Origin: Gautieria morchelliformis | Lineage: Eukaryota; Basidiomycota; Agaricomycetes; Gomphales; Gomphaceae | Length of the DNA stretch: 64,000 nt | Direction of reading: 5' to 3' | Assembly: GCA_015179125.1 (NCBI GenBank) | Contig: WHVA01000081.1 | Location: forward strand, 1-64,000 | In this document: one piece after another, positions 1,741 to 33,005 of the stretch | How the letters are laid out: each line of letters opens with the position of its first letter | Position numbering within the stretch: position 1 is the stretch's first letter | Notes under the pieces: model-generated | What the model saw: only the letters and a program-made list of their open reading frames with translations | Told to the model about the DNA's origin: nothing | Database searches by the model: none | Position numbers and translations under genes: made by a program

Positions 1741-1753
1741 AGAAGGGAGATAC
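1741..1753 (+). promoter_or_regulatory. Polypurine tract of gypsy-1
   Basis: AGAAGGGAGA lies directly before the LTR start. Purine runs here serve as the plus-strand primer site in LTR retrotransposons. Equivalent tracts precede the LTRs of gypsy-2 (about 13276-13290) and gypsy-3 (about 29668-29678). Confidence 0.7.
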
Positions 1754-5027: not shown

Positions 5028-8000
5028 ATGGGAAAGGATGACCGTGTCACTAAACTCGGGGAGGGAAATTATAATACATGGGTGGGAGAGATGCGTGCAT
5101 TGCTTATGACCAAAGAGGTCTGGAGTCTGGTCAAGGGAGAATATACTCAGCCTGGCGTCTCAGATATGGCAGAGTTAAAGTCCTGGAGGAAGGACAGGGA
5201 TATTGCAGCGGGACAGATATATCTGGCCTTGGAAGCGTCTCAGAAAGTCCATGTCAAGGGCTTGGAGGAGGATCCTGTGCAAATGTGGCGCAAACTAGAG
5301 TCTGTGCACCTCCAGAAGCGTCCTGCCACCAGATTTAATGCTTTGGACGGGTTGTTCAGCATCAGGAAACAGGATGATGAGACGCTCAATGCTCTCATGA
5401 CCAGAGTTGATGATGCTATAAACAAGGTTCAGGATTTGCGTCCACCCAACTTCACCATTGATGACATGGACGGAGAACTGGCTGCTATGGCACTCATCAG
5501 GGCACTCCCTGAGGAGTATACTGCGTTCAAATCTGCCCTCATGTTGCTTCCTCAGTTTGACTATCAGACTGTCAAAGAAGCTATGATCTTGGAACAGCAG
5601 AACCGTGCTCCACGTGGCACTGATTCTACTACTATTGCCATGAAATCTGCTCAGATTGCCCAGACTCCACAGTCATCCTCTACTTGCGACTTCTGCTCTA
5701 GATCTGGCCACACGTTGGAAACTTGCTTCAAATATAGGGATGCAAAGCGTCAGGCTGAGCAGGAGGCCAAGGAGAGGAAGGCTAAGAAGAAAGACAAGGG
5801 GAAGAAGAAGCCAGAGCAGGCCAAGCAGGCTGAGCAGGAGGAGGAAGCTAGCAAGGTGGAATTTGCAGGCAACGCAAGTATCTCTCTCCCAGATCCCACC
5901 AGTCCCACAAATGCCCTCATTGTCGAGGCGAGTGCTGACTGGACTGCAGACACAGGTGCCTCTTCACATATGACACCTCATCGTCACTGGTTCACCACTT
6001 ACCAACCCCTTGAAACACCCATTCGTCTTGCAGATGGCCAAACCATCCATTCAGCGGGGGTTGGATCTGTGAGGTTTAAGCCAGTTGGAAATGGACTACC
6101 TAAGCATCTGCTGGAATTTGAAAGAGTCTTGCATGTCCCCCTTCTGAGAAGTAACCTCCTATCTGTCTTGTATTTAACTCGACATAAACACTTCCATGTG
6201 TCTATTGTGGGAGACAAGATGTTGTTCAATCGGCAAGGCAACCTCCTCTTCACTGCCACGGTAACTGGAAACAATACAGCCCACTTAGATGGTCTCACAC
6301 AGCCAATGACAGAATTTGCCGGGCTGATCAGCACATGTCCTCTGGACATAACATTATGGCACCGTCGTTTTGGACACTTGAACTTTCCTGATGTCCATCA
6401 TGTGGTGTCAAAGGAGCTGGTCACTGGTCTGACTATCAAGTCACAGGCAACGCCAGACCCCATCTGTGAGCCCTGCCTTGCAGGGAAACAACATCGGGTA
6501 GTAAACAAGACAGCAAACTTCCATGCTACTGAACCACTTGTTCTTATCCATTCTGACCTCCATGGTCCCATGCCTGTCACACAAGATGGTTACCGGTATT
6601 GGATTACCTTCATTGATGATGCCACCAGGCTATGGGTGGTCATCAAGCTGAAGGCAAAGTCAGATGCATTTGATGCATTCAAGCGGTTCAAGGCATATGT
6701 GGAGAATGCCACGTCTCAGAAGATAAAGACATTGCGAGATGACAAGGGAGGAGAGTACATGTCCACAGAATTTGACATGTTCTTAGCTACTGCTGGAATT
6801 GCACGCCAGCACACTGTGCGGAATGAACCCCATCAGAATGGGGTAGCAGAGCGTGTTAACAGGACTCTCCAAGAGCAGGCCATTGCCATGCTCACGGAAT
6901 CTCACCTTCCAACTTCCTTCTGGAGTTATGCTGTGCCAGCCCTGGTCCATGTGAGAAATAGGTCCCCCACATCTGCATTGCAGGGAGAAATTCCCTACAC
7001 TGCGTTTTATGGACATAAACCAGATGTCTCTCATTTACGGGTCTTTGGGTGCACAGCATATGTTCATGTCCAGAAGGACAAGCGCAAACCTCTTGGTTCT
7101 CATACCGAGAAATGTGTCTTTATTGGCTATCCTGCCGAGTATAAAGGGTGGATGTTCTATAATCCTCTGACCAGGAAGGTTATCATCAGCAACACTGCTG
7201 AATTTGATGAGCGTATCTTCCCAGGTCTAACAAGGCAAACCCACCCACCACTCCCAGAAGTTCCCCCTCCAGGACCATCTACTACTATTGAAGTGGAGCG
7301 ACGTCCACCTCAGGTAGAGGTACAGGAAAAGGTGGGAGATATACCTAATCAGGTGGGAGCTGTTCCTGCACCTCTCCCAGAGCCTCCAGAAGCTATCTCT
7401 CCTGACCCCAGTCATGTTTTGGATGATTCTCACTCTGACTCAGACTCAGACTCTGAGGGAGTTACACCTCCACCTCCAATGAGAAGGTATCCTTTGCGAG
7501 AGCGACGCCCTCCTGGCAGATGGTGGGAAGCCACCACATACAGAGAGGGAACTCCTGCTATTGAATCTAGCAGTGAGGAGGAGTCATCTCCAGCACCCTC
7601 CCAGCCTGCTGATTCTGGAGAAGAATCTCTTTATACTCATGCTCAGACTGATACAGTGCTCAGTGCACATGATGCCTTTGAGTGTGCGTTCCAGGCTGCA
7701 CTCAAGGTCTCTGCCCACAGCACAGATCCCAAGTCATTTGCTGAGGCCATGAAACGCCCTGATGCAGAATATTGGTTCAAAGCTGCATACGATGAGATCC
7801 AAGCTCAGCTTGACAATGGCACCTGGAAACTTGCCAAACTGCCCCCAGGCAGAAAGGCCATTGGCAGTCGATGGGTGTTTCTCATCAAGCGAAAAGCCGA
7901 TGGGTCCATTGATCGCTACAAAGGAAGGTTGGTTGCCAAAGGATATGCCCAGAGGCCTGGCTTCGACTACACTGAGACGTTTGCACCCACTGCCAAATGG

Positions 8001-9290
8001 GCTGCATTGCGTGCTGTGCTTGCAATGGCCGCCATTGAAGACATGGAGCTCGAGAGCATCGATATCTCATCTGCATACCTAAATGGAGAGCTTGATCAGG
8101 AAGTTTACATGGAGCAACCAGAGGGGTTCCACCAGGGTGCTTATGATGATTTCCTCAAGCTTCTCAAAGGCATCTATGGTCTGAAGCAATCTGGGAGAAT
8201 CTGGCATCAGAAGCTCGATAAAGAGCTGCGGGAGATGGACTTTGTCAAAGTGAGGTGTGACCATAGCATTTGGGTGTACCAGAAGGGTGATGATAAGGTC
8301 ATCATCCCCGTCTTTGTGGATGATTTGACCATTGCATCCAAGTCCAAGGAAGCCATGCGGCGTGTGAAGGATGAGCTGAAGAAGCGTTTTAAACTTAGGG
8401 ACCTCGGTCCTACGTCTTTCCTCCTTGGAGTTTCCATTGAGAGGGACCGAGCCAAGCGCACACTCACACTCTCACAGAAGCAGTATACCTTGGACCTTCT
8501 GGAGCGATATGGCCATTCAGATTGCTATAGAGTCTTTACTCCTATGGATCCTGGCTGCAGGCTGTCCACTCAACAGGCTCCCTCTACACCGGAGGAGGTT
8601 GAATTCATGAAAGACAAGCCATATATTCATGCAGTGGGATCCTTGCTTTATTTGGCTACTGCAACCCGTCCAGACATAGCATATGCGGTGGGAGTATTGG
8701 CCAGATTCAACTCCAATCCTGGCATGGCACACTGGACAGCTGTCAAGCACCTCTTCAAATACCTGAAGGGCACCCTTGACTACAAGCTGACATACAAGCC
8801 AGGCTTGACACAGTCAACCCAGCTGTTTACGTCATATTCAGATGCAGACCATGGTGGAGACAAAGACTGTGGTAAATCCACCGGTGCATATGTGGTTAAA
8901 ATGGGAACTGGAGCCATCAGTTGGAGAACAAAATTGCAGACCATGGTGACTCTGTCTACCACAGAGGCAGAATACATTGCGGCTGTCTCGGCAGGCCAAG
9001 AGATCCTTTGGTTGGGAAATTTGTTCACTGAGCTTGGGTGGAAACCTAGAGGTTCCTCTACACTCTTCATTGATAACCAGTCAGCAGTTCAAGTTGCTAA
9101 GAATCCTGAACACCACGGGAGACTCAAGCAACTAGACTTGCGCTTCTACTGGCTGAGAGATGTGGTCACCGAAGGAAAAATCTCAGTTGCTCACATTCCC
9201 ACCGATGAGATGCCAGCGGACATGTTGACAAAGTCGTTGACAAAGGTCAAGGTTGAACGCTGCAGGAAAATGCTAGGACTAATGCTATAA
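5028..9290 (+). CDS. copia gag-pol polyprotein
   Basis: A single frame of 1420 aa runs from the ATG at 5028 (MGKDDRVTKL); the frame is open further upstream but has no better ATG. Domains in order: gag (UBN2-like) with CCHC knuckle CDFCSRSGHTLETC; aspartic protease DTGASSHMT; integrase HHCC region (HRRFGHLN ... CEPC) and core with FIDDATRL, LRDDKGGEY and NGVAERVNRT supplying the D, D and E; RT with FVDDLTIAS; RNase H with YSDADHGGDKD, STTEAEY and DNQSAV. All catalytic residues are visible and no stop interrupts the frame. The gag-pol fusion in one frame is normal for fungal copia elements. Possibly active, but the LTR mismatch argues against recent transposition of this exact copy. Confidence 0.95.
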   Translation: MGKDDRVTKLGEGNYNTWVGEMRALLMTKEVWSLVKGEYTQPGVSDMAELKSWRKDRDIAAGQIYLALEASQKVHVKGLEEDPVQMWRKLESVHLQKRPATRFNALDGLFSIRKQDDETLNALMTRVDDAINKVQDLRPPNFTIDDMDGELAAMALIRALPEEYTAFKSALMLLPQFDYQTVKEAMILEQQNRAPRGTDSTTIAMKSAQIAQTPQSSSTCDFCSRSGHTLETCFKYRDAKRQAEQEAKERKAKKKDKGKKKPEQAKQAEQEEEASKVEFAGNASISLPDPTSPTNALIVEASADWTADTGASSHMTPHRHWFTTYQPLETPIRLADGQTIHSAGVGSVRFKPVGNGLPKHLLEFERVLHVPLLRSNLLSVLYLTRHKHFHVSIVGDKMLFNRQGNLLFTATVTGNNTAHLDGLTQPMTEFAGLISTCPLDITLWHRRFGHLNFPDVHHVVSKELVTGLTIKSQATPDPICEPCLAGKQHRVVNKTANFHATEPLVLIHSDLHGPMPVTQDGYRYWITFIDDATRLWVVIKLKAKSDAFDAFKRFKAYVENATSQKIKTLRDDKGGEYMSTEFDMFLATAGIARQHTVRNEPHQNGVAERVNRTLQEQAIAMLTESHLPTSFWSYAVPALVHVRNRSPTSALQGEIPYTAFYGHKPDVSHLRVFGCTAYVHVQKDKRKPLGSHTEKCVFIGYPAEYKGWMFYNPLTRKVIISNTAEFDERIFPGLTRQTHPPLPEVPPPGPSTTIEVERRPPQVEVQEKVGDIPNQVGAVPAPLPEPPEAISPDPSHVLDDSHSDSDSDSEGVTPPPPMRRYPLRERRPPGRWWEATTYREGTPAIESSSEEESSPAPSQPADSGEESLYTHAQTDTVLSAHDAFECAFQAALKVSAHSTDPKSFAEAMKRPDAEYWFKAAYDEIQAQLDNGTWKLAKLPPGRKAIGSRWVFLIKRKADGSIDRYKGRLVAKGYAQRPGFDYTETFAPTAKWAALRAVLAMAAIEDMELESIDISSAYLNGELDQEVYMEQPEGFHQGAYDDFLKLLKGIYGLKQSGRIWHQKLDKELREMDFVKVRCDHSIWVYQKGDDKVIIPVFVDDLTIASKSKEAMRRVKDELKKRFKLRDLGPTSFLLGVSIERDRAKRTLTLSQKQYTLDLLERYGHSDCYRVFTPMDPGCRLSTQQAPSTPEEVEFMKDKPYIHAVGSLLYLATATRPDIAYAVGVLARFNSNPGMAHWTAVKHLFKYLKGTLDYKLTYKPGLTQSTQLFTSYSDADHGGDKDCGKSTGAYVVKMGTGAISWRTKLQTMVTLSTTEAEYIAAVSAGQEILWLGNLFTELGWKPRGSSTLFIDNQSAVQVAKNPEHHGRLKQLDLRFYWLRDVVTEGKISVAHIPTDEMPADMLTKSLTKVKVERCRKMLGLML

Positions 9291-10278: not shown

Positions 10279-11177
10279 TTGCATGAAGGTCCTGAATGGG
10301 ACCCGGAGATGGACGTCGCCCCAGAAACTAATGATGATGTCCATGCCATTGCCGCAGGCAATGACGGTACGCCTCTGCGCATGAGCGTTGAAGGTGACAT
10401 GGACCTGCCAAAGGTCCTGCACGATGCATACCATGAAGACGCCATGTTCTCGAAGATCATGGCGCACCCAGATGCCCACCCAAGGTTTGGCATCAAGGAT
10501 GGGCTGATATGGACAAAGAATCAGCTCAAAAGAGATGTCATTGCCGTCCCCCAGACTGTTTTTCACGGGGGAAGGAGTCTGATCGAAATCATAATTGATC
10601 ATGCACACAGGACTGTGAGTCACTACGGCCACACGAAAACTTTGAATTATATTTGAAGGGCATACTGGTGGCAAGGTATGGGCCCCGACATCGAGATGTT
10701 CTGCATCTCATGCACGAGGTGCCAGATGAACAAAACTGGCACCCAGAAGCCCAAGGGCTGCACAGCCTGCCCATCCCAGACAGGCCATGGCAGTTGATCG
10801 GAATTGACTTCATGGGGCCAATGCCCAAATCAGACGGCTGTGATTACCTCATGGTAATCATAGACAGGCTGACTTCGCACATCCGCCTCGTCCCAATGAC
10901 GACGAGGGTCACAGCAAAGGAAGTAGCCTGGCTATTCCTCAAGGAAGTCATCAGGCTCCATGGAGTCCCCAACTCCATCATCTCCGATTGAGACTCAAAG
11001 TTCACGTCGATCTTCTGGCGTGAACTTCAGCAGCTCATGGGGACTAAGCTCCTCATGGCTACCGCATTCCATCCACAGATAGATCGAGCCACCGAGCGGG
11101 CAACCGCTCGATTGGACAGATCCTACGGACGGTCGTCAGAGATGACCAGAAGGACTGGGCACACAAGTGCCTGATGG
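10279..11177 (+). pseudogene. gypsy family A integrase, broken
   Basis: This reads as the region before and through a Ty3/gypsy integrase: zinc-binding HAHRTVSHYGH ... CISCTRC, then core PWQLIGIDFMGP, VIIDRL and PNSIISD. The frame is broken near 10655 (shift after the HH motif) and by a TGA at about 10990 where the family has an arginine codon (SD-R-DSKF). Toward 11100 the frame decays. It stops abruptly at 11177, where gypsy-2 is inserted. The missing C-terminal part of the same integrase is at 23849-23662 on the minus strand, displaced by the inversion. Confidence 0.85.
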
Positions 11178-11444
11178 TGTTAAGACCCGTTCCCGAGTCC
11201 AGACCTGAGGCCTCAGCCTCGGTTCTCGCTCGGGAACCTTCGGGCTTAACTCGGATTCCCTATCGGTTCATCATTCACCCTGATCCCCATTCCTAGATAG
11301 TCCTGTTCCATTTCTGATGATCGTCCGTCGACCCTGCTTCCTGCTTGATACAGGCATTGATGTCCTCTTTCCGTTCCTTGCAAATCAGTATATAAACCCC
11401 CGTCATGTATGCTAATTCCTCACTTCTGTTGTAACCTCCTGTAC
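11178..11444 (+). repeat. gypsy-2 5' LTR, 3'-truncated
   Basis: It starts TGTTAAGACCCG and is nearly identical to 13292-13516 up to CCCGTCATGT. The rest of the LTR and the internal region are deleted, and the sequence runs straight into chromodomain codons at 11445. Confidence 0.85.
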
Positions 11445-13291: not shown

Positions 13292-13516
13292 TGTTAAGAC
13301 CCGTTCCCGAGTCCAGACCTGAGGCCTCAGCCTCCACTCGGGAACCTTCGGGCTTAACTCGGATTCCCTATCGGTTCATCACTCACCCTGATCCCCATTC
13401 CTAGATAGTCCTGTTCCATTTCTGATGATCGTCGGTCGACCCTGCTTCCTGCTCGATACGGGCATTGATGTCCTCTTTCCGTTCCTTGCAAATTAGTATA
13501 TAAACCCCCGTCATGT
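13292..13516 (+). repeat. gypsy-2 3' LTR, first part
   Basis: It starts TGTTAAGACC after the purine tract GGGAGAGG and carries TATATAAA near 13495. It is cut at CATGT (13512-13516), the target duplication of the solo LTR that follows. The remainder is on the minus strand at 24096-23850 and ends TTCTTAACA, pairing with TGTTAAGA. Confidence 0.9.
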
Positions 13517-15048
13517 TGTAGGGGAACGGCTGTTCAACCAGCCAAGGAAGGCTGCTCAACCAGCCCTAGTCTTTTCTTTTTGTCTTGACAACATGTAAAA
13601 ACACATTTGAGGAATTAACAGTATCTGTATGCTGTTAATATAACTGGGGAAAGGCTTTTCAAACATTCCTCTAGTTAACTCATATTTTTCCTTATTTTTC
13701 CAAAGTCTCCATGGCTCAAACTACCATTTTTCTGTCATTACAGAGTTGTGGATCCTCTAGCACCCACAACTCTGTTCTCGGCGCTCTATTTCAAACTCCG
13801 CCGGGCACCTCGGCGGTGGCCGCATTTTCGGACTTATGGTCACCCAAGCACCCACAAGTCCGGCAGGATGGCTCACTCAGTATTTCCAGCTGAGTCCCAA
13901 ACAGTTGCTATATGCAGCCATAGCAACTGTGCAGCCTGTTTGGCTTCACCAAACAATGGGGATCATGGTCAGTCATGGCAACTGGGCTGTACCAGGCTAT
14001 GCCCAGCTGTGCTAAGCAATGCTCTTAGTAATCATGGCTACAGAGCCCTAATTGGCTCAGAACTGCTTACTCAGCTTCTGAGTGCCAAATACATGGTTAT
14101 CTGGAGATACAGCCTCAATGACTCAACCAATCCAGGCACAACTTGGTGAGTCAGGAGTACATGACTCAGCCAAGCTGTGCTATGGCACATGACCCTTTTC
14201 AGTGAGTCATTCCTGACAAATCAAGCTCTGATTGGTAGGAAGCATGGTAGAGTCCCCTGGAAACTGCCAGTTTCTTCCAACCCTTTCTTCCATCTTCCAC
14301 AAGCTTCTTCCCCCATTCCATTAATAGATAGAAGGTTCTACCTGCTTACTAAGCTCCTGTACATTACAATATAAAAGGAGGCCCTTTGCCTGCCCTTTGA
14401 GCAATCAATCTACCCATCTTCTATCCTACACAGCTTGTGTGACTTGCACATCTTATCTAAGTTCCTAACCCGAACTAGAATACTACTCTTGCTTAGAGTA
14501 ACTATTCTTAGTTAAGTAGTTGCTTTACTGCTTAGCCACTTAGCCTAACACGCTGGGTGAAACTCTACAGAGTGAGGTTGGCAATCGATTTTCTTGTCAA
14601 TTAGCACTCCAATACCCGAGACGAGCTGTTCAGTTGATTTTCCTGTTCAGTGACTTTCACAAGTCAAGTCAAGTTGTGCGCGAAAGCCACTTCACATTAC
14701 TCTCTCGTTATTGCAGTGCATTGACGTTGGTCGACCCAATCCACTTACAAACTCTCCTGCGGAGCCTATTCCCTCTTTATTAAAAGGAATACTCTTGGAC
14801 CCCGATAGTGTCCTTGAACCTACACACTCTTTTAGTTTATTGTTCAGTGCAGCTAAGAAACGCATTGCCTTCTACCTGTAATAACTTGGACTAGTTATTA
14901 CACAGATTGCAACCAAGGTACAAATATTAAATTATTTCCGGAGTTGTGCTGCTGCATTGAATTGGTATTCTACTAGTCGTGTAAACGACACGTTCTGATA
15001 GACAGAGGCGTTAGCAATAACACCAAAGTCTTGAAGGGTTCCAAAACA
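13517..15048 (+). repeat. Solo LTR copy 1 (1532 bp)
   Basis: TGTAGGGGAA ... CCAAAACA with TG and CA ends; no internal retrotransposon sequence is attached. Its 5-bp flanks are CATGT (left) and GGTGT (right), which differ. The copy at 24097-25628 is its reverse complement without indels; the only mismatch I found is C at 14622 against T. Short open frames inside (for example 13748-14149) have no known domain and are not called genes. Confidence 0.93.
14370..14376 (+). promoter_or_regulatory. TATA box in solo LTR
   Basis: TATAAAA followed by GGAGGCCC, about 850 bp into the LTR, fits the U3/R boundary of an LTR promoter. The second copy has the same box on the minus strand at 24775-24769. Confidence 0.55.
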
Positions 15049-15819
15049 GGTGTTCATATGGCCAAAGTGTGTTCGCAGGACGTCCCTTCCATAGGTCATG
15101 TGGGATCAACCCAGTAGACGAAGAGTCCGTGCAGGGTAGCATGTATGCGGGTCCCAAGACATGGTTTTGGACATAAGTGCCTTCGCCACCTTTACTCTCC
15201 ATCGTTTCATGTTCGCACTCTTCTCTCACTCTATTGTATGTTTATTCCATCTACTTAGTATCATGACTGTGTACCCCTATCCAACCCTGACTCACAATGG
15301 CCTCTTTCCTATTCGCTGATACCTTACGAGCATTCGATATAAGTAGTTTACATTCGCATGTATATTCTCTAGTTCAATTATCATACGTCGTCCATCTTGT
15401 GCAAACTTGACCTCACTGTGATCATCATTTTTGAGCCTCCTCCTGGAGATTTCTATCTTCGACCAGAAGAGGACTTAGGCATCACTGGTGAGTTCTCATA
15501 CTTCATCTTCGTTACCTTAGTCTTCGAACTATTTTCTGTGCTGACGGCGAAGGGCTCTGAAGGGGCACCTTCGCCGGCGAAGGGATTGTCGATACTTAGA
15601 CAACACTTCCATGACACCTTGCACGTTACATCGTCAAGTGCCACGGGCTATTTCACTACGACTGTAGATAGGGCGAGCTCCGCTCGGGCAGCCCTCTTAT
15701 CTTGTGAACATTTATTGGTTCACCTATTTGCCGAACGGCATACTTATTCGCACAAGTCATTTGGGCATTCGCTGTGTTCACTAATATACGATATTAACGC
15801 CTAAAAACCAATCTTGACA
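15049..15819. repeat. Solo LTR X, first part (displaced by inversion)
   Basis: On the minus strand it starts TGTCAAGATTGG at 15819, next to ACTTC (15824-15820), and runs to 15049, where GGTGT marks insertion of a 1532-bp solo LTR. Its other part is 25634-25894, ending ATGACA followed by ACTTC. Together they give about 1032 bp with TGTCA/TGACA ends. A TATAAG at 15338-15343 suggests that the LTR sense is the plus strand here. The open frames inside are not credible genes. Confidence 0.75.
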
Positions 15820-16012
15820 GAAGTCCATGGATATCGAATTCCAGGGTTGTTCCGGGATCGGAAGTCGCTTCAGGATGCCGTAGGGTTTGTGATGTTGAGG
15901 CTTGGCATGCATACAAGTGGTGCATGACTTGCAGTAGTCTTGGACCATTTTGCAGAGAAGTGGCCAAGTGTAAGTGCATCGTATGATGTCGATGTAAGGG
16001 CAACCCTGGCTG
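15820..16012 (-). pseudogene. Family B gypsy integrase, N-terminal piece
   Basis: On the minus strand it reads CTYTWPLLCKM, CKSCTTCMHAKP and PWNSISMDF, which is the integrase zinc-binding region and the first core strand. It stops at the ACTTC target site of LTR X. The core resumes at 25895 (FIEKLPKSSGYD) on the plus strand. Bases 16013-16085 look like a piece of another LTR and are unassigned. Confidence 0.8.
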
Positions 16013-16095
16013 GTTGTGGAGATCACACTACCACACAACTGACAAGGGGAAATCCAAAGAGAAAAGTCTAAGGACCCCCAATGTCAGCGAGCCCG

Positions 16096-16126
<31 letters not shown>

Positions 16127-16335
16127 CTATTTATCGTCTTTTGGAGCTGTGCTCTATGTAAGACGGGTACTACAAAACGCCTGTCAACATATGTTCGCGA
16201 GCTGTTCTCTGGTTCTATCTCCGCTTGTGCTCCATGGGCGTGGCCCTGGGCGTGTCCGTGCCTGTGTAGGCGGGGTGGTTTGTATGTGTTCATTGCGCGT
16301 TGCGTGTTCCTGCCTGCCCTCTAGGCCCCATCTTT

Positions 16336-19300
16336 CTATGTCTCCCTATTCTCCAGCAGCGTGATGTCCCCGTATGCGTGTTGTAGTCTCTCTGTGTCGT
16401 GTACGTATTTGAACAGAGGTCGCATTGCTTTAGGTCTTCCCAAGAGTGTCCTGACCTCCGTCGCCCCCCTCCTCAGGCTCTTTTTTAGCTCTCCTCTCTG
16501 CGCTCTGTATTTGGGGCACACAAAGAGGAAATGGTGCACGGTCTCTGTCATTCTCCTGCACGCCGGGCATAAAGGGGAGTCGGCTTTCCCTATCTTGTGC
16601 AGATGCTTGTTCAGCGGTATGTGTCCCGTTCTAAGTTGTATGAGGAGTGTCGCTTGTCGTCTCGGAAGTCCGGCGCTGAGTCTGGAGTATGCTGTAGAAG
16701 GCATGGATGGGTCAATTCTATGCGCAAATCTCGCTCTGGGGGACTTAGCAAACACCGCTTTGGCTTCCTGTTTGAGCTCCTTGTGGTGTCTCTGGAGCTC
16801 CGCCGCTTTGCTGATCGGTAGTCTTCCTCTGCACTCGATTGGGGTGCTCATCTCTTTGGAGGATGCTCCTCTGGCGGCTTTTTTGGCCTCCTCGTCTGCC
16901 CTCTCATTCCCTCTTATCCCCTTGTGTCCCGGGACCCACCGCATGTGTACCTTTGCTCCCGTCTGCCAGCGCGTGACTCCCTCGATCTGTCGGTGCAGCG
17001 CGTTAACCAGGTACTGACCCAAAATTTGCTTTTCTTGTCTCATCATCCGTATAGCCGCCTGGTTGTCTAGGCTTATGACGTAGCTGCTTGCCCTTTCTGT
17101 GTTTAGGAGTTTCGCTGCCAGGGCCGCCCCGACCACCTCCGCCTCAAAGACTGTGTGCTCTTGTTCAGTTCCTAGGTAGAGTCTCACTGCCTTTGTCTCT
17201 ATGCCGTCTCTGTAGAGTACTGCTGCCGCCCCGACTCCCCCGTCCACGCACGATCCATCCGAGAATATCTGTACGCTGGTCCTGTCGGCTGCAATCTCCG
17301 CCATGGCCTGTTTGTCGTCCAGGGGTATTCGTATATCGAAGGCGGGCGTCCACTTAGGGCCATAGGTGACTGTCTGTATCTTTTCCATGCAGTTCGGATC
17401 TATGTTAAAGGCTCGCATGATCTCGTGCAGGGGACTCCGGTGCTTCTTGACGTATCGGCACGCCGCCCTCTGGACCTTGGGTGTGAGTGGATGTTTATCT
17501 GGGAGGCAAGCCAGGCGTACAGCTGCCCGGTGGATGAGTTTCGACACGAGCAGTCGAAAAGGCAATAGGTTGGCGTGTGCATCTATGGTGTCGGTGGCGG
17601 TTGTCCTGTTATCATCAGCCCAGCCTGTCGTTGGATTCTGGAGAGCTTGTTGATATGTCCTTTGGAGCCTTTGCTATTTGTTGTGCTCGGTATGAGGAAG
17701 ATGTCCGCTGCGTACAGCATCTTTGGCACTGCAACGGCTAAATAGAACTGGCGCATGTGCCTCGCTGCGGCCCCCTTTGTCGGCTTAGCTAGCCTCCTGT
17801 ATTGCCCTACGTACTTCTCTCCTTTCGCCAGAGTGTAATTGACGTGCTCTTTGTAGCGCAGTTCCTGATCAATTATGACACCTAGGAATTTGTGGGAGGT
17901 GGAAGGGTTTATTGTGTGGTGGCCGATCTTTATTGTGGGGCGTGTCAGGGGCTTAGTCTTCTTGGCATGTGACGGATCCGTTTCGCATTTCCTGGTGAGA
18001 CCGATCAGCACAAACTTCTCTACTGCAAAGTGGCACTCATGGGTTTTTGCCCAGCTCATCGTGCCGCTGCTCCTCGTCATCATATCTTGTAGCTTGCTGA
18101 AGGCTTCGGTGAAGTCTTTGCCTTCTGCGATCAGCGTTGTATCGTTCACGAATCCTACACAGTCTTCGCTGTTCTTGCGGTTCACGGTTTCGATTAGGTC
18201 GGCATTGTAGTACTGATAGGCGATGGCTGAGAGCGGGCAGCCTTGATCCATTCCTCGTCCTATCTCCCACATGTGCGTGCTGTAATCGTCAAAGCTTACT
18301 GTCGTTCGGCGGCCCTGTACTTTCCGTCTAATCCACTCGGTGTACTCCTCCGGTATGCCTCTGCTGCGCATGTTGTGTACGAGTCTGCCGAGCGTTATGC
18401 TCAGAAACGCGCCCTTGATATCCAAGAAGAGGGCCCCCAGCACGTTTCCTCGTCTCCAAGTGTCCTTGGCGGCTGTGACTGTGTAATGGATGGCGTCTGT
18501 CGTCGTGCGTCCCGGTCTGCATCCGTAGTGATTGTCTGGGAGCAAGTAGTGCTTCTCCGTCATCTTTACTAGGTCCTCAGCGACGCACGCGGACAACACC
18601 TTCCCTATCGTATCAAGGAGTGCGATGGGTCTGTACGCACCTGGGACCGTGTAGTCAGCCTTGCCTGGTTTCCGGAGGACTCGCATTATGGCGTCCTTCC
18701 ACTCGTCTGGGTATGTCTTTAGACTGAAAGTTGCTCGGAAGAGCGGTCCTAGGTAGGAGAGAAGTGTGTCAATACACTGTTTTATGACTACATTGGGGAT
18801 ACCGTTGATTCCTGGGGCTTTGAACAAGTTTAGCCTGTTGATGGCCCTCTTGATTTGCTCGTCGGTGACGGGCTCGTATTCGAAGGCATTTGTGGGATAC
18901 TGTGGACTTCGCGGTACATTTTCACCGGCGGCTCTCGTGGCTGGGAAAAACGTGTCGAAGAACATTGATGCCTTTTCTTCGTTTGTATTGGCCAGCCGCT
19001 TTGTCCCGTCTTCGTGCCTAGCTGTAAGTGTTGGCACTCTGGTGTGCCCTCCATCCGTGGCGTCCGCTGACGCGTACTTGTGAGCTGTCCATAGCGTCTT
19101 CTGGTTTATCCCTTCCAGAAAATCGTCCCAGTGTTCCTGCTTCGAGTGTTTGATTGCCGTTGCGTACCGGTTTCGAGTCGTCTTGTATTCGTCATGGGTT
19201 TCATGTAACGGGTCCGACTTGTGAGCATAGGCCCTCCTGCCAGCTCTTCGCGTGTCTGTCCATAGCGTTGTCAGCTGTCTCGTCCACCATCGTTTCATAT

Positions 19301-20267
19301 GAGGGGGCTTAGTCTTAGGTATTATTTCCTCCGACGTCTCTGTGATCGCATCGACGATTGCCTTGAGTCGTAGGGCGAACTCTTCCGCGTTGTCCGGTGC
19401 AGGCCTCTCGATGCTCCTCTGTAGCCTGGCCTTGAGTCCTTCTTTGAAGGGCTCCCAGTCTGCCTGTCTGTAGTTGAACCTTGGAGCGTCGGCGGTCGTT
19501 TTGGTGAAGACTTGTACGACCGTGTCCACTGGATAGTGGTCGCTCTTGGCAGGTTGGTCTTCTGGTATTGTCATGCAAGCAGCAAGGTTTTCTAGGAGCC
19601 CTGTGGAAATGAAGACATTGTCAGTGCGCGTTAGGTTTCCAGAGGACTGGGCCTTGAGCGTGGGCAGTCCTTTGGGGAGCACCATCTGCATGTCTCGTTC
19701 CGCCACGGCATCTAACAGTAGCTGAGCGGCATCGAGATTGGCTCTCGTGAACAGGTGGCCGTTGCGTTCTTCGTCCCAATACGGGTGGTGTCTGTTGAAG
19801 TCGCCTACCCATATCATCTCTGCCGGGGTGTGTTGTTGATTCTGTCTCGTTCTCACCTCGTTCTGGACGCTGGTTTGGAGCTTGTTGATGCTGTCATTGT
19901 TAGTGCAGTCTACGTATAGATTGAACAGTGATACTTCACCGGCTTCTGTCCTTATCGTGATCGCTGTGACGTCTGGTGTTCCCACATCTATTGCTGTCCA
20001 CTTGCTCGTGGCCACTCTCTTGTTTACCAGGATCATTGACCTGGTTCGCTTCTGCCTGTCGTGGTAATGTGTTCTAGGATATACTGGGAACCAATGTGGG
20101 GTTGCTCTTGCGTTGCCCAGAAAATCGAGGTAAGGTTCTTGTATCGCAATGATGTCGTATTTGTCAAGGGGGCATTTCATTAGCAGGTCTAGTGTGGCGG
20201 TGAGTGATTTATTGACATTTTGTTGTCTGACTCACAGTTGCGTTAGATCGTGGGTCGCAGTATTCAT
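16336..20267 (-). pseudogene. LINE ORF2: APE-type endonuclease, reverse transcriptase, RNase H
   Basis: The ATG at 20267-20265 overlaps the ORF1 stop as ATGA, a layout suited to reinitiation. Codon 12 is TGA (20234-20232), so the open part starts at 20180. Endonuclease motifs: IQEP, GDFNRHHPYWD and SDHYP. RT motifs: LFLDIKGAF is intact, but the catalytic pair reads GFVNDTTL, with Asn in place of the first Asp. A shift near 17600 separates RT from RNase H (FSDGSC, then HMRWVPGHKGIRGNE) and the C-terminal zinc motif CPACRRMTETVHHFLFVC. Stop at 16336. These are defects in start, catalysis and frame, so this copy is dead. Confidence 0.9.
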
Positions 20268-21944
20268 CCCATATAGATATTGTTGATGTCTTCGTCCCCG
20301 GGGTAGTCGTTCGTTCTATCTTCCCTTGGTCCATATTCGTCTAGCGTCCTCTGTCTCCCTCCTTGGTTGTGCCATCCCTCGTCCCTGCTATTCACCGGCG
20401 GGTTGCCTCCCCTCCGACCTTCGTGCCATTGGTTGCCCGGGTCCCACGCGCCCTGGTTCTGGTCCTGGTGCTTTCGTCTCATACTGGTGCGTTCCTCCGC
20501 TTGCCGGATCAGCTCCCCCGCGTCGGCCACCTCCGCTGCCTGGTCTTGCTGTTCCCATGTCCACGGGTCCTCGTTGGGGTAGTATTTATACGTGCTTTCC
20601 GGGTCTGCCCTTTCTAACCTTTGGGATGCCGTCGTGAAGCTCGGGCAGGTGTGGTCCCAGGACGCGTGCCCGTGTTCGTTGCAGGTAACGCACTTGAACT
20701 TCACCGGATTCGTCTCTTCGCACTCTGAGGTTCTGTGGGTCTCTCCACAAGTGCCGCATATGTTTGGGCCCTCGCACTCTGCCGCGATGTGCCTGACATC
20801 GTATCTCTGGCATTTTAGGCACCTTCTGGGCTCTCTCCTCATCCTTCTAGCCCATGTCCGTTTTCCGGCAATGATCATGCCGTCTCTGATGCATTGGTTT
20901 GCGGCTTGTGCTGTAGTGAGCTTTGCGATCAAATGTGCTGTTTTTTGGCCTTCCGTGCGTCTGTGGATCGGCTTGATCCATCTCGTCAATATGAGGGTGC
21001 CATCTGGGATTCTTGAGTCACGTTCTATCTTCCTCATCTCAGCGAAGGCTTCCGGAGAGTGGCTGAGCGGGACGTATTTGACGATGACCGTTAGCGCTCT
21101 GTCCTTTACTATCGACGTTATGCTGAATTTCTCTAGGAATTGTCTCTTGTGCTCCTGTATCCACCTCGCTCCCTGTGGGCTGCTTAGGTCTAGGACTATT
21201 CCTCCGTTCGCGAGCTTTTTGACCCCGATGACTCTTTCATTTTTGTTGCCTCGCGACTATCCCATTCGTTCTAACGCCTCGTTGGCCTTCGCCACGATCT
21301 CCCGCCCCGTCAGTTCGCCTAGGGCGCTGCTCTCTGCTGCTGGGTCTTTGTCTACTGGCTTTCTCTGGCCTTCACTCGCACTAGAGTATTGGGGTGCGAC
21401 AATGGTACATTACCTTGAGCGCAGCCGCGTACGTTGTTCCCACCGCACCATCTCTGCTGTTGGCTTTGCTGGCTTTCTGCACGTTGTGTGCTTTCTCCGT
21501 CGCTTTTAGAGCCTCAGATGCTGCTGCCTTTGCTCCGTCCGTCGCGTCCTTTGCTGCCTTGAGCAGAGTGTTTATGTTGTTGAGGGCGGGTGCGAGTCCT
21601 TTTTCGACGTATTGGAGAACTGCCGTTCCCATGTTACTGGCAGCCTCATCTATCATTAGGATCGCTATTGCTCTAGCACCCTCTTGCATTGGCTTCGGAG
21701 TCGTGTTGTGCTCTAGGGATAGGAGAGTGTAGCTGAGTTGGTCAATGGAGAGGGTTTCTTCTTTCGCAAGGTAGCCGTGTCTGTCCAAGAATGCTCTGGC
21801 TTGTTCCCTCGTTCGGATAGTGAAGGATGGGTCTGCTAATAGGTCTGTTCTGCTTTTTGCTCCCCCCTGCTGTGTTGTCGCTCTTGTTCGGCCGCCTTGT
21901 CCTTGTGACGTGGCAGGCGGCTGCGGGTCCACGGTGGGCGGCAT
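20264..21944 (-). pseudogene. LINE ORF1: gag-like protein with three zinc knuckles
   Basis: It starts at 21944 (MPPTVDPQPP). An Ala-rich helical N-terminus follows. The frame shifts at about 21395-21410 (near KVMYHC) and a TAG stands at about 21257 (after ALERMG). The C-terminal part, open from 21037, has three knuckles: CLKCQRYDVRHIAAEC, CGTCGETHRTSEC and CVTCNEHGHASWDHTC. A Gln/Gly/Arg-rich tail ends at 20264. In the family this protein coats the RNA. Inactive here. Confidence 0.85.
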
Positions 21945-22105
21945 CGTTGTTTTGCCCGCCTTTTTCGTGGTGAGTGCTCTGTGTGTAACTAGAGTGTGTT
22001 TTCTGAGCTCTAACTATCTCTAGTGTGTGTGTGTGCGTGGGAGAAGTGAATTTGGGTATTTTGGGTGTTGTGGTACGCCTGAGAAAGGGTCTCTAGCGAG
22101 CCCGT

Positions 22106-22516
22106 ATTATACTACGCTGTGCAGCCAGGGACAACACTTGGCACCCACCATCAACCCTGCATCCTCCTGACCTCCCTGACCCTTGATGCCACCTATTACG
22201 TGAGTCGCTTGATTTCCGACACTGTTCCGAGAGTGGAAGTCGGAAATTGGAGTGGAACTGGCAAAGTGAACAGAACTGGTGGAAGTTCTCCCAGAAGCGG
22301 AATCATTTCCGAAAGCGGAGGCGGAGATGGAATCAGAACTGGAAGCGGAGTCGGAAATAGTGTTGGAAGTGGGTGTGGTGTCGGAACTGGAAATGGAAAA
22401 CAGGGTGTCCCCTGACAGTCAAGGCTTTTGTTCTGGCCTTGGTGTCCTGAGAGCGGATAATCGTGGCTTTGCTGGAGTATGCAAAGTCGTAGATCATTGA
22501 TATCTGGAACATAGAT
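22106..22516. other. Unassigned transposon DNA
   Basis: This lies between the LINE 5' end and the family B pol fragment. It is rich in GGAA and TTCCG words on both strands, like other family B sequence, but I cannot align it with confidence to a pol domain. Confidence 0.4.
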
Positions 22517-23661
22517 TCAGGACTTGTAGTGGAGGAATCCGTCGGAATCGACGGACCATCCAGGACTGGTTGGGTTATCGAGGTGGGTTGCAGAGATGGG
22601 GTCGGAACTGAGAGTGGAACGGATGTCAGAGTGGAGAGACTCGGTGTCCATAATGATTGAGCCACGGAGTAGTGGAAACTGCAATGCTGTGGCATGCAGG
22701 GATGATGGCAGCTGCTCAGTCGAGAATACTGGGCGGAAATTGTGCAGATTAACACTGGCATAGTCGCTACTTCCCTCTTTGGGTAGACGTCCCAACGTCT
22801 AGTGAGCGCATCGGGTTTTGCTCTGAGCTTTCTATGATCCGTAACAATGTTGATCGGATAAGTTGGACCTTTGAGGTAGTGTCACCATATTTTGAAGGCT
22901 TCGAAGATCGCAAGTAGTTCTTTATCATGGAGGTCGTAGTTGAGTTCCGGGGCAGAAAAGGTGCAGGAATGAAATACGATTGGATGAATTTCTCCGTCAT
23001 TGGGGGAAATGATTGAAAGAATGGTGGCTAGCATGTAGTCGGAAGTGTCGGTTTCGAGTACAAGTTGGGCATCTGGAATCCAGAAACCGAGAATAGGAGC
23101 CATAGTGAAGCATAGTAAAGGCCGCCTTGAGGGCTTCAAATGCTGAATGGCATTTGGGAGTAAAATTCCATTGATCACCCTTCCTGGTGAGATGCATGAG
23201 CGGAACAGTAATGTCAGAAACATTATAAATGAAACATCGGTAAAAATTGGCGAAGCCAAGGAAAGACTGCACATCCTTAACTCGTCAGGGTTCCAGCCAT
23301 TCTTGAATTGCCTTGACTTTGTCCTCTGCCATGGTAAGACCTGTTGGAGAGAGGATGTAGCCCAGGTATTCAACCATGTCGTGATGCCATTCGGATTTCT
23401 CTGCTTTTGCGTAGAGATGGTGTTTGCGGAGACGGTGGAGTACTTTGCAGACATGTTCCTGATGTTCTTCCAGTGTGTCAGAATAGATGAGGATGTTGTC
23501 AATGTAGACTAGGACGCATACATTGAGGAGGTCGGAAAATGCGTCGTTCATAAAGCGCTGAAAAGCGGCGGGAGCATTGGTTAGACCAAAAGGCATGACA
23601 ACCCACTCAAAAGCACCATAGTGAGTGTGGAAGGGGGTTTTCCACTCGTCACTTTCGTGGA
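22517..23661 (-). pseudogene. Family B gypsy RT-RNase H fragment
   Basis: On the minus strand, RT runs from WKTPFHTHYGAFEWVVMPFG through VYIDNILIYSD, where the YxDD box reads [31 protein letters not shown], an RNase H piece (YDLHDKELLAIFEA) and the linker (ALTRRWDVYP, then HNFRPVF) follow. At least two frame changes occur (near 23285 and 22770). Its upstream end at about 23661 is fused in frame to the C-terminus of a family A integrase. Confidence 0.85.
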
Positions 23662-23849
23662 GCTCTAGTATGGCGTCGTGCGCCATCATCAGGTTCCAGC
23701 AAGCCTGTTGTATGAACTGGGACACTCCCTTGAACGGGGTGTCCATTGTCATGGGCATGTCTATCCGTGGCATGTACCCGTGGTTCAGCTCGAAGGGAGC
23801 GAACCCTGTGGTGGTGCTGACGTTGATCTTGATGGCCACTTTGACCATC
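23662..23849 (-). pseudogene. Family A gypsy integrase, C-terminal piece
   Basis: It reads VKVAIKINVSTTTGFAPFEL, GYMPRIDMP and FIQQACWNLMMAHDAILE. It continues the family A integrase that breaks off at 11177. The first five bases (GATGG, 23849-23845 on this strand) are the second copy of the gypsy-2 target site. Confidence 0.85.
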
Positions 23850-24096
23850 TGTTAAGAACGTAAGTCGTACTTAAGACTCAACCCAAGGGCCAAGCCGAGG
23901 ATAACCGAGGTTCAGAACAGAGGGCTTGGCTTCAACTTCATAGGTTGTGCCCACTACAGTGTTCCGCCCTAATTTCGGAAACGGAATTGGAGATAGGTTC
24001 AGCTGGAAGCCGAGGTTCGGAAATGAGGATCAGACAGAGGAGCGGAAGATACGAGGAATCTAAGTTGATATCAGAACTGAGGAATTAGTGTACATG
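23850..24096 (-). repeat. gypsy-2 3' LTR, second part
   Basis: On the minus strand it starts with the duplicated CATGT (24096-24092), continues TACACTAATTCC (compare CATGTATGCTAATTCC at 11404 onward in the 5' LTR) and ends TTCTTAACA at 23850. With 13292-13516 it makes an LTR of about 467 bp. Confidence 0.87.
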
Positions 24097-25628
24097 TGTT
24101 TTGGAACCCTTCAAGACTTTGGTGTTATTGCTAATACCTCTGTCTATCAGAACGTGTCGTTTACACGACTAGTAGAATACCAATTCAATGCAGCAGCACA
24201 ACTCCGGAAATAATTTAATATTTGTACCTTGGTTGCAATCTGTGTAATAACTAGTCCAAGTTATTACAGGTAGAAGGCAATGCGTTTCTTAGCTGCACTG
24301 AACAATAAACTAAAAGAGTGTGTAGGTTCAAGGACACTATCGGGGTCCAAGAGTATTCCTTTTAATAAAGAGGGAATAGGCTCCGCAGGAGAGTTTGTAA
24401 GTGGATTGGGTCGACCAACGTCAATGCACTGCAATAACGAGAGAGTAATGTGAAGTGGCTTTCGCGCACAACTTGACTTGACTTGTGAAAGTCACTGAAC
24501 AGGAAAATCAACTGAACAGCTCATCTCGGGTATTGGAGTGCTAATTGACAAGAAAATCGATTGCCAACCTCACTCTGTAGAGTTTCACCCAGCGTGTTAG
24601 GCTAAGTGGCTAAGCAGTAAAGCAACTACTTAACTAAGAATAGTTACTCTAAGCAAGAGTAGTATTCTAGTTCGGGTTAGGAACTTAGATAAGATGTGCA
24701 AGTCACACAAGCTGTGTAGGATAGAAGATGGGTAGATTGATTGCTCAAAGGGCAGGCAAAGGGCCTCCTTTTATATTGTAATGTACAGGAGCTTAGTAAG
24801 CAGGTAGAACCTTCTATCTATTAATGGAATGGGGGAAGAAGCTTGTGGAAGATGGAAGAAAGGGTTGGAAGAAACTGGCAGTTTCCAGGGGACTCTACCA
24901 TGCTTCCTACCAATCAGAGCTTGATTTGTCAGGAATGACTCACTGAAAAGGGTCATGTGCCATAGCACAGCTTGGCTGAGTCATGTACTCCTGACTCACC
25001 AAGTTGTGCCTGGATTGGTTGAGTCATTGAGGCTGTATCTCCAGATAACCATGTATTTGGCACTCAGAAGCTGAGTAAGCAGTTCTGAGCCAATTAGGGC
25101 TCTGTAGCCATGATTACTAAGAGCATTGCTTAGCACAGCTGGGCATAGCCTGGTACAGCCCAGTTGCCATGACTGACCATGATCCCCATTGTTTGGTGAA
25201 GCCAAACAGGCTGCACAGTTGCTATGGCTGCATATAGCAACTGTTTGGGACTCAGCTGGAAATACTGAGTGAGCCATCCTGCCGGACTTGTGGGTGCTTG
25301 GGTGACCATAAGTCCGAAAATGCGGCCACCGCCGAGGTGCCCGGCGGAGTTTGAAATAGAGCGCCGAGAACAGAGTTGTGGGTGCTAGAGGATCCACAAC
25401 TCTGTAATGACAGAAAAATGGTAGTTTGAGCCATGGAGACTTTGGAAAAATAAGGAAAAATATGAGTTAACTAGAGGAATGTTTGAAAAGCCTTTCCCCA
25501 GTTATATTAACAGCATACAGATACTGTTAATTCCTCAAATGTGTTTTTACATGTTGTCAAGACAAAAAGAAAAGACTAGGGCTGGTTGAGCAGCCTTCCT
25601 TGGCTGGTTGAACAGCCGTTCCCCTACA
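24097..25628 (-). repeat. Solo LTR copy 2 (1532 bp, inverted)
   Basis: Reverse complement of 13517-15048; paired positions add up to 39145 throughout. On the minus strand it is flanked by GGTGT (upstream, 25633-25629) and CATGT (downstream, 24096-24092), the mirror of the mismatch at copy 1. Confidence 0.93.
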
Positions 25629-25633
25629 ACACC

Positions 25634-25894
25634 CAAAGGGGTTGGATTAAGAAGATGATGGGGTTAGTGATGAACCATCATGCCGGGTAAATGGTATCGA
25701 TCATATTTGATGGTGTGCCTGCTGGCGAAATGCGCGAGCAGTGAATAGCGGTTCAGAGAATGGGGCGAACAGCGGGTAGAGTGGATGTAAAGGGGGAGTG
25801 GTTGGAGGGTGCGGCGAACTCTGGCGAAGATGCTAGGGAGTGACAAGGAGGAACATAGAGACAGTGGGGTAAGAGAAATAGACAGGTCATGACA
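25634..25894. repeat. Solo LTR X, second part
   Basis: It continues LTR X to its end at GGTCATGACA (25894), followed by the target copy ACTTC (25895-25899). No gene is present. Confidence 0.72.
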
Positions 25895-26223
25895 ACTTCA
25901 TTGAGAAACTTCCTAAGTCATCTGGCTATGATACCATTCTAGTTATCATTGACTGCCTTACAAAGCCGTCTATCTTTATTCTGACTTATGATACCATCAC
26001 TTCTGCCCAGCTCGCACAGCTCTTTGTGCTCCACGTCTTTTCCAAGCACGGAATCCCTTCCCATGTCACTTCCAACCGTGGATCAGAATTCGTGTCATCC
26101 TTCTTCCACACACTCGGCAAGGCTCTCGACATGAAACTCCACTTCACTTCCAGTTATCATCCCGAAGGTGACAGCCAAATGGAAGGCACTAATCTGACCC
26201 TCAAGCAGTACCTCCATGTCTAT
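25895..26223 (+). pseudogene. Family B gypsy integrase core, second piece
   Basis: An open frame reads FIEKLPKSSGYDTILVIIDC, FSKHGIPSHVTSNRGSEFV, HFTSSYHPEGDSQMEG and LKQYLHVY. The second catalytic residue (family VTSDRGSEF) is Asn. It breaks off at 26223, where a TIR element is inserted, and resumes at 27543. Confidence 0.85.
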
Positions 26224-27515
26224 TCCCTGACTCTCTCCGAAGGAGAGGGAGGGTTTGCATGAGCGCGAATAACCATGAACACGGTTATGCTGATGAATTT
26301 GTATGGATGGGCCTTCCTCCCGGTTTTTTCCATGCTGGTCACTCATTTAGTGGGGGGGGGGGTTCTCTGTGTCTCACGGGGGGGTAAAACATATCCCCCC
26401 TCTCCAGTTGTTTGCCTTGCCTGTCGCGTATTTCCTTTGTCATCCCCTCCCCACCTATTCTCTGTTTGCACAGTGGGTATTCTATCCGTGCCTTTTGGGC
26501 ACGGCCTTCGGAAGTCTCTTGCTTTCGCTGCATTCCCCAGCCTGGTGGGGGGTCCCTCTACCTCCCGACTTCGCCACGGACAAGTATTCTCATACTGTAG
26601 CCCTTTAAGGTGGATGAGATAGATAAAGTCGTAACCCGGTGATCTAAGTCACCGATTAAAATCCTACCTCACACCTCCTCATGCAGATTTTCGAGCATTG
26701 TCCATGCTCGGAGACATGTTCGTTTATTCTCCTCTCACGAGACCGACCCCTCTACAGCTAAAGACATGGCCATTACCACCCCAAACCTATGCCACACCAT
26801 TTCTTTCACCATCTCCCTCACTACCCATCCAGTCACCCGGGAGAAAATTCACACATGCTTAGCTCGGTGAACCTCCTTCCCGCTGTACATATCGCTCGAT
26901 TTCTCCAGGACACGTATCACCATGTTAGAGATGATGTTAAGGAACGGTGAATTAGCAAAACAAAAGGGGTGAAAACAAACAACGAGAAAGCGGATGACAA
27001 CATTGCCAGTAAGTTTTCGCTACTGTATCTTCGACCAAGGATTGCAACAGCATCTCTCCCAGTGATGGCACATCCACTCCTGTTCCAAAAAGTCGGAAAG
27101 AGGTGGAAGAAATCATATTGGAAACCTATGTCAATCTTGACTTGGTTATTTATGGTTTAAATCTCCTATTTACAGGCATCTAACCAACCAGGGACCTGCC
27201 GCCATGCGCTCCCGTCTCATTTTACATTCGTGAACTGTCTGGAGTTGGCTAAGCACCACCTCGTGTGTCCGCAGCCTGAGGGCAGCCCACCTCCTATTTT
27301 GACTCTCTATAAGTAACAAAAACTCCTTGTATTTCATCAAGTGTTTATTGCTCCCACTGTAGTTAATTTATTTCGTCTACCCTCCCATTCTCCAACTTGT
27401 ACTCCTTGTATTTTACTGTCTTACAGTGGTCCGGCATCAATTCCATGGACAGAAACTACTTTGGTGATCCCTTTTTTTAAGCCGTAAGAGATTTAAAGTC
27501 GGAGAGAGTCGGGGA
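26224..27515. mobile_element. 1.3-kb element with 17-bp terminal inverted repeats
   Basis: The left end TCCCTGACTCTCTCCGA (26224-26240) and right end TCGGAGAGAGTCGGGGA (27499-27515) are inverted repeats with one mismatch. The element interrupts the gypsy integrase between the codons for HVY and CNYQ. It has no credible transposase, so it looks like a non-autonomous DNA transposon. About 27 extra bases (27516-27542) stand between the right end and the gypsy codons, and no target duplication is evident, so the borders are not proven. Confidence 0.5.
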
Positions 27516-31354: not shown

Positions 31355-31790
31355 TGCGCTGGGTCCCGGCACTGCCAGTCAGCGCACGCTGCGCTGACAG
31401 CGCCAGGTACCAGCGACCGCGTGCGCTGACAGCACCAGCCGCCGACGCACCATGCGCTGACACGCCAGCCACCAGCGCACTCTCCCCAGCGCACCGTGCG
31501 CTGTCAGCGCCAGCCGCCAGCACAGCATGCGCTGACCGCGGCCTGACAGTGCCAGCCACCGACGCACCGTGCGCTGACCGTACGCTGTCAATGCCAGCTG
31601 CCAGCGCACAGTGCGCTGTCAGCGCCAGTCGCCAGCGCACGGTGCGCTGACCGTGCGCTGACAGCGCCAGCCACCGACGCACCGTGTGCTGACCGTACGC
31701 TGTCAATGCCAGCCGCCAGCGCACAGTGCGCTGACCGCGCCAGCCACCGACGCACAGTGCGCTGACCGTGCGCTGACCGACACTGTTTCC
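31355..31790 (+). repeat. GC-rich minisatellite array, left
   Basis: Degenerate tandem units built from CAGCGCCAGCC, ACCGACGCACCG and TGCGCTGACCGTGCGCTGA, about 30-44 bp each. The minus strand stays open across it (191 codons) only because of the repeat; I do not call a gene. Confidence 0.85.
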
Positions 31791-31889: not shown

Positions 31890-32694
31890 CTGGAGGCAGA
31901 AATTATCTTGATTGAGCCTGCTTTCTAACTTGTCTGATTTAGCTCTGAGTGGGACCAATTTATTCCTCACTGCTGGGGCAACAACTACAGAACACCTTAA
32001 TGGCCGCATTGTTCCGAAGAGTGGCAACGATCTCGATGTCATCGGTGTCCTCTTCTCTAACTTCCTAGCGGGAAAGAACCAAACACTCAAGGTCCAGGGC
32101 GATACAGTTGATCCTGGCGGGCAGGGTCAAATGGTGTCTTGGCTGAGCACAGTGTTCAAGACACTGACTTTGGATGTTACCTTACCTGGTCAAGTATTCA
32201 AGGTAAGCTAATAGATCTATTTTCGTGCACCTACTCCCGCTTATTGCCAACGTGTCGCTAGATTATAGACTCGATCACAATCGAAGACCTGGAACTTGAT
32301 TTGACCCAACAAAGCGAAGACTTCAACCCACTGACAAGCTCCAAAACGACTTTGGCAACCTTCCAAAATCCATTTGGATTCTCTTCAAGTAGTGCAAGCT
32401 AGCGAAGATATTATCATCGAATTCAACGGAGCTGACGCTGCAGCGGTATGTTTGCACTCATGCATTCGACCTGCAATTTTGTATCTACTGCTGACCACTC
32501 CTCTTGTAGTTGAACGTCCCAACGGCAATGATGAACAGCAGTGTCTCGACAGGAAACGTGACTGACTTGCTCATTCACTTCAGCAACCAGACTCTACACT
32601 CTTTGGGCAACGGCGCTTTCGGGTCATTTTTTGCACAAGTTACGTGCAACCAAAGCAGGTGTCCCCCAGTCAAAAGTTTCCTGCATGGTTAAAT
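31890..32694 (+). pseudogene. DUF3712-like gene fragment between minisatellite arms
   Basis: Three exon pieces can be read: LSDLALSGTNLFL to TLPGQVFK (to 32202), IIDSITIEDLELDLTQQ (32262 on) and LNVPTAMMNSSVSTGN (32510 on). Introns have GTAAGC/CTAG (32203-32261) and GTATGT/GTAG (32446-32509). A two-base loss near 32375 shifts the frame before LQVVQASEDIIIEF. These motifs resemble the fungal DUF3712 family of membrane-linked proteins of unknown role. Retained introns mean DNA-level capture, not retroposition. Both ends are missing. Confidence 0.65.
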
Positions 32695-32730
32695 CTGAAG
32701 GACCATCTATAAAAATCATCAGCCCCTCTG

Positions 32731-33005
32731 GTCAGCGCACGGTGCGCTGGTGGCTGGCACTGTCAGCGCACGGTCAGCGCATGGCGCGCTGGTGGCTGGC
32801 GCTGACAGCGCATGGTCAGTGCACGGTGCGCTGGTGACTGGCACTGTCAGCACACGGTGCGCTGGTGGCTGGCGCTGACAGCACACGGTGCGCTGGTGAC
32901 TGGCGCTGTCAGCGCACGGTCAGCGCACGGTGCACTGGTGGCTGACGCTGTCAGCGCATGGTCGGCGCACAGGGTGTTGGCGGCTGGCACTGGTCAGCAC
33001 ATGGT
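32731..33005 (-). repeat. GC-rich minisatellite array, right (inverted)
   Basis: GGTCAGCGCACGGTGCGCTG and GTGGCTGGCGCTG units are the reverse complement of the left array. With it they make a large inverted repeat around the DUF3712-like fragment. Confidence 0.85.

Follow-up and report, generated by a model that had tools for sequence, protein, structure and literature searches.

How do two nearly identical solo long terminal repeats (LTRs), lying in opposite orientation in a fungal genome, come to have 5-bp flanks that differ at each copy and match crosswise between the two? The question is raised by a stretch of 64,000 nucleotides from Gautieria morchelliformis (assembly GCA_015179125.1, contig WHVA01000081.1, positions 1 to 64,000), referred to here as the window. 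Copy 1 occupies positions 13517-15048 on the plus strand and copy 2 positions 24097-25628 on the minus strand. Both measure 1532 bp, start with TGTAGGGG and end with CCAAAACA, with the usual TG...CA ends, and they are 99.8% identical, the three mismatches in 1532 positions being at LTR positions 1106, 1493 and 1494. Coordinates, length and opposite orientation had been given in an earlier note made from the DNA letters alone, and the sequence bears them out. The internal region of the LTR family is absent beside both copies, and all four flanks consist of two older repeats, which we call A and B. As an answer, we consider it very probable that two insertions in opposite orientation were followed by a crossover that flipped the interval of about 9 kb between them.

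On their own strands, copy 1 has the flanks CATGT/GGTGT and copy 2 has GGTGT/CATGT, the crosswise pairing already described in the earlier note and recovered in our reading. The CATGT at 13512-13516 (plus strand), which is the left duplication of an insertion into element A, has its twin at 24092-24096 (minus strand), now adjoining copy 2. The GGTGT at 15049-15053 (plus strand), now adjoining copy 1, is the twin of that at 25629-25633 (minus strand). The exchange of target-site duplications is therefore reciprocal, and the pair shows 5-bp duplications only after its flanks have been exchanged. The interval inverted relative to the ancestral order is 15049-24096, and the crossover point may lie anywhere within the LTRs. 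Given the base composition of the window, one 5-mer match is expected by chance with a probability of 0.00099 and four matches with about 1e-12. However, the 5-mers alone are thin evidence, because CATGT and GGTGT differ at just two of their five bases. The main weight of the evidence for exchange lies in searches for empty sites, compared with the junctions as found.

For these searches, the flank joins were looked for elsewhere in the same genome and the best 40 candidates of each search were scored, so that the counts are not genome totals. The join of the left flank of copy 1 with the right flank of copy 2 was spanned in 40/40 matches (the best 40 of 355 candidates), at 92-96% identity. 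The join of the left flank of copy 2 with the right flank of copy 1 was likewise spanned in 40/40 (the best 40 of 3557 candidates), at 94-96% identity. In contrast, each of the two joins as found in the assembly, used as controls, was spanned in 0/40 of the best-scored matches. The halves of A or B abut in all 20 empty copies that were fetched (10 of A and 10 of B). In these, A continues from 13516 to 24096 with an overlap of 5 bases (3 in L016), and B continues from 25628 to 15049 with an overlap of 5-6 bases.

The two older elements give the same orientation independently. Element A has LTR ends TGTTAAGACC...GTTCTTAACA. The first part of its 3' LTR, at 13292-13516 on the plus strand, is interrupted by copy 1 and continues at 24096-23850 on the minus strand; this remainder (23850-24096) opens with the CATGT duplicate as its first five bases and ends in ...TTCTTAACA. 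An uninterrupted copy of the CATGT site stands within the window itself, since the matching part of the 5' LTR of A (TGTTAAGACC..., 11178-11428, plus strand) runs unbroken across it. The duplication made by A's own insertion, GATGG, is found outside the interval at 11173-11177 (plus strand) and inside it at 23845-23849 (minus strand). Element B is an LTR-like repeat of 1032 bp, TGTCATGACC...AATCTTGACA. Its left part (TGTCATGACC..., 25629-25894, minus strand) lies outside the interval, while its right part (...AATCTTGACA, 15049-15819, plus strand) lies inside it and has the GGTGT duplicate as its first five bases. B's own duplication, GAAGT, occupies 25895-25899 (minus strand, outside) and 15820-15824 (plus strand, inside). 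The GATGG and GAAGT duplications pair only when the interval is flipped back.

Host reading frames agree with this. To the left of A, at 10279-11177 on the plus strand, is a decayed integrase region of the retroelement hosting A, which by reading appears to be of Gypsy type; its match to the Pfam rve profile (E 0.0009, profile positions 2-73) is below the curated score. The outer part of the integrase core of B's host, at 25897-26226 on the plus strand, also matches rve below the curated score (E 2e-5, positions 25-102), and the preceding part of this frame lies at about 15820-15900 on the minus strand. The short partner pieces of the two frames, of 26 and 45 residues, had no Pfam match; by reading, they are putative integrase. 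Over the restored junctions both integrase frames are unbroken, as DDQKDWAHKCLM/VKVAIKINVSTTTGFAPFELN for the host of A and LPIPEQPWNSISMDF/IEKLPKSSGYDTILVIID for the host of B. Flipping the interval back thus restores the older sequences by each of these measures: the exchanged as against the as-found joins, the older duplications and the integrase frames.

The sequence shows directly where the two insertions lie, that their flanks were exchanged and which order is ancestral. We infer that the event took place in the organism rather than in the assembly, and that its mechanism was homologous recombination, for which double-strand-break repair with conversion is the probable pathway. In the simplest history, two members of one LTR retrotransposon family would have inserted about 9 kb apart in opposite orientation, one into the 3' LTR of the older element A, duplicating CATGT, and the other into the LTR-like repeat B, duplicating GGTGT. 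Recombination between its own LTRs would have cut each insertion down to a solo LTR. A crossover between the inverted LTRs, near-identical at both breakpoints, would then have flipped the intervening DNA and left each LTR with one flank of each site. Alternatively, these steps may have been one: a break in a copy still at full length, if mended on the template of the inverted solo LTR, would delete the interior and homogenise the LTRs, and resolution of that repair with a crossover would invert the interval. Other histories were discarded. The 12-kb unit is not a single composite insertion, because its outer plus-strand flanks, CATGT and ACACC, are unlike. The interval is not the LTR family's own interior, as it contains a long interspersed nuclear element (LINE) and a foreign reverse transcriptase, and its ends are repeats A and B. 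A single aberrant integration was dropped by reasoning, as the two LTR ends of either side and the two 5-bp duplications call for two integration events.

How the rest of the family behaves was asked in the same genome (122 Mb, 1,113 contigs), where a search by the 5' end, allowing at most 2 mismatches, found 296 LTR starts. Among the other copies compared, those ending in CCAAAACA measure 1525-1535 bp. Identical 5-bp flanks were found in 33 of 48 distinct complete LTRs, a count that left out partially aligned copies (including L058 and L059) and one repeat of a counted copy; 5-bp duplication is therefore the rule for this family. Among the 15 copies without identical flanks, five belong to exchanged pairs (the two of the window, two on contig C148 and one on C247, the second C247 copy having been scored as partial owing to a 22-bp gap) and two are off by one base (L042, L050). 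Five more resemble LTRs of longer elements through shared inner flanks (L048, L072, L097; L061, L079). In the flank comparison, three family copies have CTGGTGGACG(C/T)TCTGGGAAT in common on the right and two have GAAGGGGGGATAAC in common on the left, a pattern like that of the 5' and 3' LTRs of candidate full-length relatives. Beside several copies we also observed stretches 75-78% like the window LTR (C148:13989-14708, C468:83404-84078, C670:511927-512591 and C113:175587-176581), possibly members of a related LTR family with a tendency to lie close to this one.

Six close inverted pairs, defined as inverted and within 15 kb, were read from the 100 LTR starts listed of the 296. One, on C238, is not decidable; three of the five decidable pairs are exchanged, namely those of the window, C148 and C247. 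On C148 (G000; L049 and L056) the copies lie at 6233-7764 (minus) and 15337-16868 (plus), with 7.6 kb between them and 2 differences, and their flanks are TGGGC/TAGGC with TAGGC/TGGGC. On C247 they lie at 440-1949 (minus) and 2266-3797 (plus) of locus L069, just 316 bp apart, with no substitutions and one 22-bp gap, and the flanks are CTGGT/ATCTG with ATCTG/CTGGT. For each of these two pairs a single exchanged join was searched; it was spanned in 15/40 best-scored matches for C148 and in 40/40 for C247.

The partners of all three exchanged pairs are closer to each other than is usual in the family. Substitutions number 3 (window), 2 (C148) and 0 (C247, for which the multiple alignment shows the gap as 4 differences). 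Over 45 family copies, after dropping fetched copies that lack exact end motifs, the median distance is 2.2%. The nearest non-partners are at least 22 differences away for the C148 and C247 copies and only 6 and 9 for the window copies. When one copy of each of these two pairs was used to search the genome, the outcome was similar: the C148 partner scored 2755 bits and the next match 2636; the C247 partner scored 2705 over a shorter match and the next 2628. Where both copies of a close inverted pair are complete, as in four cases including C419, the two are mutual nearest neighbours, a relation seen in nine pairs among the 45 copies, whereas distant pairs on the same contig are about 1 to 2% apart. 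Variants shared by partners and absent from the other 43 copies number 10 for C247, 3 for C148, 1 for the window and 0 for the unexchanged C419, whereas the other 666 pairs share 0.04 on average and at most 3. By this count C247 is clearly exceptional and C148 borderline, and nothing can be read from the window pair. Variants private to one copy are few in partners partly by construction, as partners mask each other; the argument for conversion uses the partner distances and the shared variants, not that count. The mutual closeness of close inverted pairs suggests conversion between close inverted LTRs, and the near-identity of exchanged partners suggests either conversion accompanied by crossover or a restriction of recombination to near-identical copies. 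Recent joint insertion could also account for it. The earlier note had called the two insertions independent, which is right for the target sites; the near-identity of the partners, which recurs in the two other exchanged pairs, nevertheless suggests that they were also homogenised or were picked as partners for their identity.

The main rival to an inversion in the organism is a mis-orientation by the assembler, which would have passed from one LTR into its partner and written out the 9-kb interval in reverse, so that the true flanks match at both copies. Inverted copies 99.8% identical over 1.5 kb are a classic trap, the other two exchanged pairs are near-identical too, and three exchanged pairs out of five decidable is also what random orientation could give. 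One apparent duplicate in the assembly was seen: L058 (C855) and L059 (C451) are a single LTR copy met twice, its junctions identical and its distance from the contig end 531 bp in each, probably a duplicated contig end. However, neither the window nor the loci examined up to that check contain any N, and the C247 pair covers just 3.4 kb overall. Moreover, flanks are identical in 33 of the 48 complete copies, and a further five resemble LTRs of longer elements, so that the assembly as a rule passes through this 1.5-kb repeat without error. We regard an assembly error as improbable, yet it is the reason why the earlier note went too far in calling the inversion proven: an assembler flipping the interval between near-identical inverted repeats prints the same sequence. 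The inversion history itself, as that note proposed it, is supported by the empty sites, the GATGG and GAAGT duplications and the two frames. The same evidence leaves a negligible probability for a coincidence in which two LTR junctions of no common history, their flanks decayed or deleted, match crosswise by chance. Fifteen of the 48 complete copies lack identical flanks and the two 5-mers are similar, as such a coincidence would have it; against it speak the empty sites, the older duplications of A and B and both frames, together with four matches of vanishing joint probability. Chance matching of 5-mers is ruled out by the empty sites, set against the as-found controls, and by the older duplications.

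A special case of the inversion history is that the flip recurs, frequent recombination keeping both orders in coexistence between nuclei or strains and the order observed being one of two. Partners are near-identical in three exchanged pairs and mutually closest in the four complete close pairs, and three exchanged out of five is close to the half expected at equilibrium. On the other side, the window pair is present in a single order in the genome-wide LTR search, and near-identity is also explicable by recombination between near-identical copies only or by siblings inserted close together. A second haplotype was sought through one window gene (36310-37170), which is single-copy, so none was found for that gene. 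Recurrence is possible, though doubtful. Equally tentative is the wider proposal that close inverted solo LTRs in this genome are small two-state inversion loci, homogenised by repeated conversion, flipping often and possibly with both orders coexisting, in which solo formation, homogenisation and inversion could be one repair event. Returning to the inversion history, several observations weigh against it or its extensions. The flipped order is known from this one assembly alone. The close inverted pairs on C419 and C586 are unexchanged, the plus-strand copy of each having matching flanks, and three of the 15 mismatched copies (L030, L046, L062), for which the sample offers no partner, are unexplained. 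The C148 5-mers are just one base apart, so that this case rests on its empty-site search. Finally, conversion has a weaker case than inversion, as C419 shares no private variant and the three of C148 equal the maximum of the 666 pairs.

A programmed invertible switch, which would require a recombinase dedicated to the repeats and a function for either order, was also considered; the open reading frames (ORFs) scanned in the flipped DNA are retroelement parts or have no Pfam match. A retroelement remnant at 22882-23848 (minus strand) contains an integrase frame end, by reading and with no Pfam match, followed by RVT_1 and RNase H-like domains. The LINE, at 16336-21944 (minus strand), has endonuclease-reverse transcriptase and RNase H ORFs by Pfam; its upstream ORFs within 20264-21944 (20264-21037 and 21381-21944) may be gag-like by reading only, the Pfam scan, which covered 20264-21037, having given no match. 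Eukaryotic genes in the window encode a U1-70K N-terminal domain and a homeodomain. A Copia-type element at 4959-9290 has one open frame of 1443 amino acids with RVT_2 and gag domains and an integrase core just below the cut-off, and a 1-kb piece of its family is inverted at 2875-3874 (97% against 5440-6439). Short tandem arrays at 31486-31788 and 32691-32992 are partly inverted to each other (80-84%).

Inversion through recombination between inverted LTRs is a known mechanism, of which this locus is a new, well-documented case. The transposon Galileo has been credited with inversions in Drosophila that arose by ectopic recombination among its copies. As there, opposite element copies stand at both breakpoints, the duplications are exchanged and flipping back restores older sequence; unlike Galileo, the elements here are retrotransposon solo LTRs in a fungal genome, separated by 9 kb and lying within further retroelements. 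Rearrangements mediated by LTRs and Ty elements in yeast, and by human endogenous retroviruses (HERVs) in primates, share with this locus recombination between LTRs, swapped flanks and the use of mismatched duplications as a sign of exchange. Here, however, a single contig carries both reciprocal junctions, and the nested older elements A and B confirm the exchange independently.

In summary, the locus is an unusually clear record of structural change, in which two insertions, two older insertions below them and two reading frames orient the inversion. With three exchanged pairs out of a small number of close inverted LTRs, the rates of LTR-driven inversion and conversion become directly measurable in this species. 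LTR divergence may mislead the dating of copies that lie close together.

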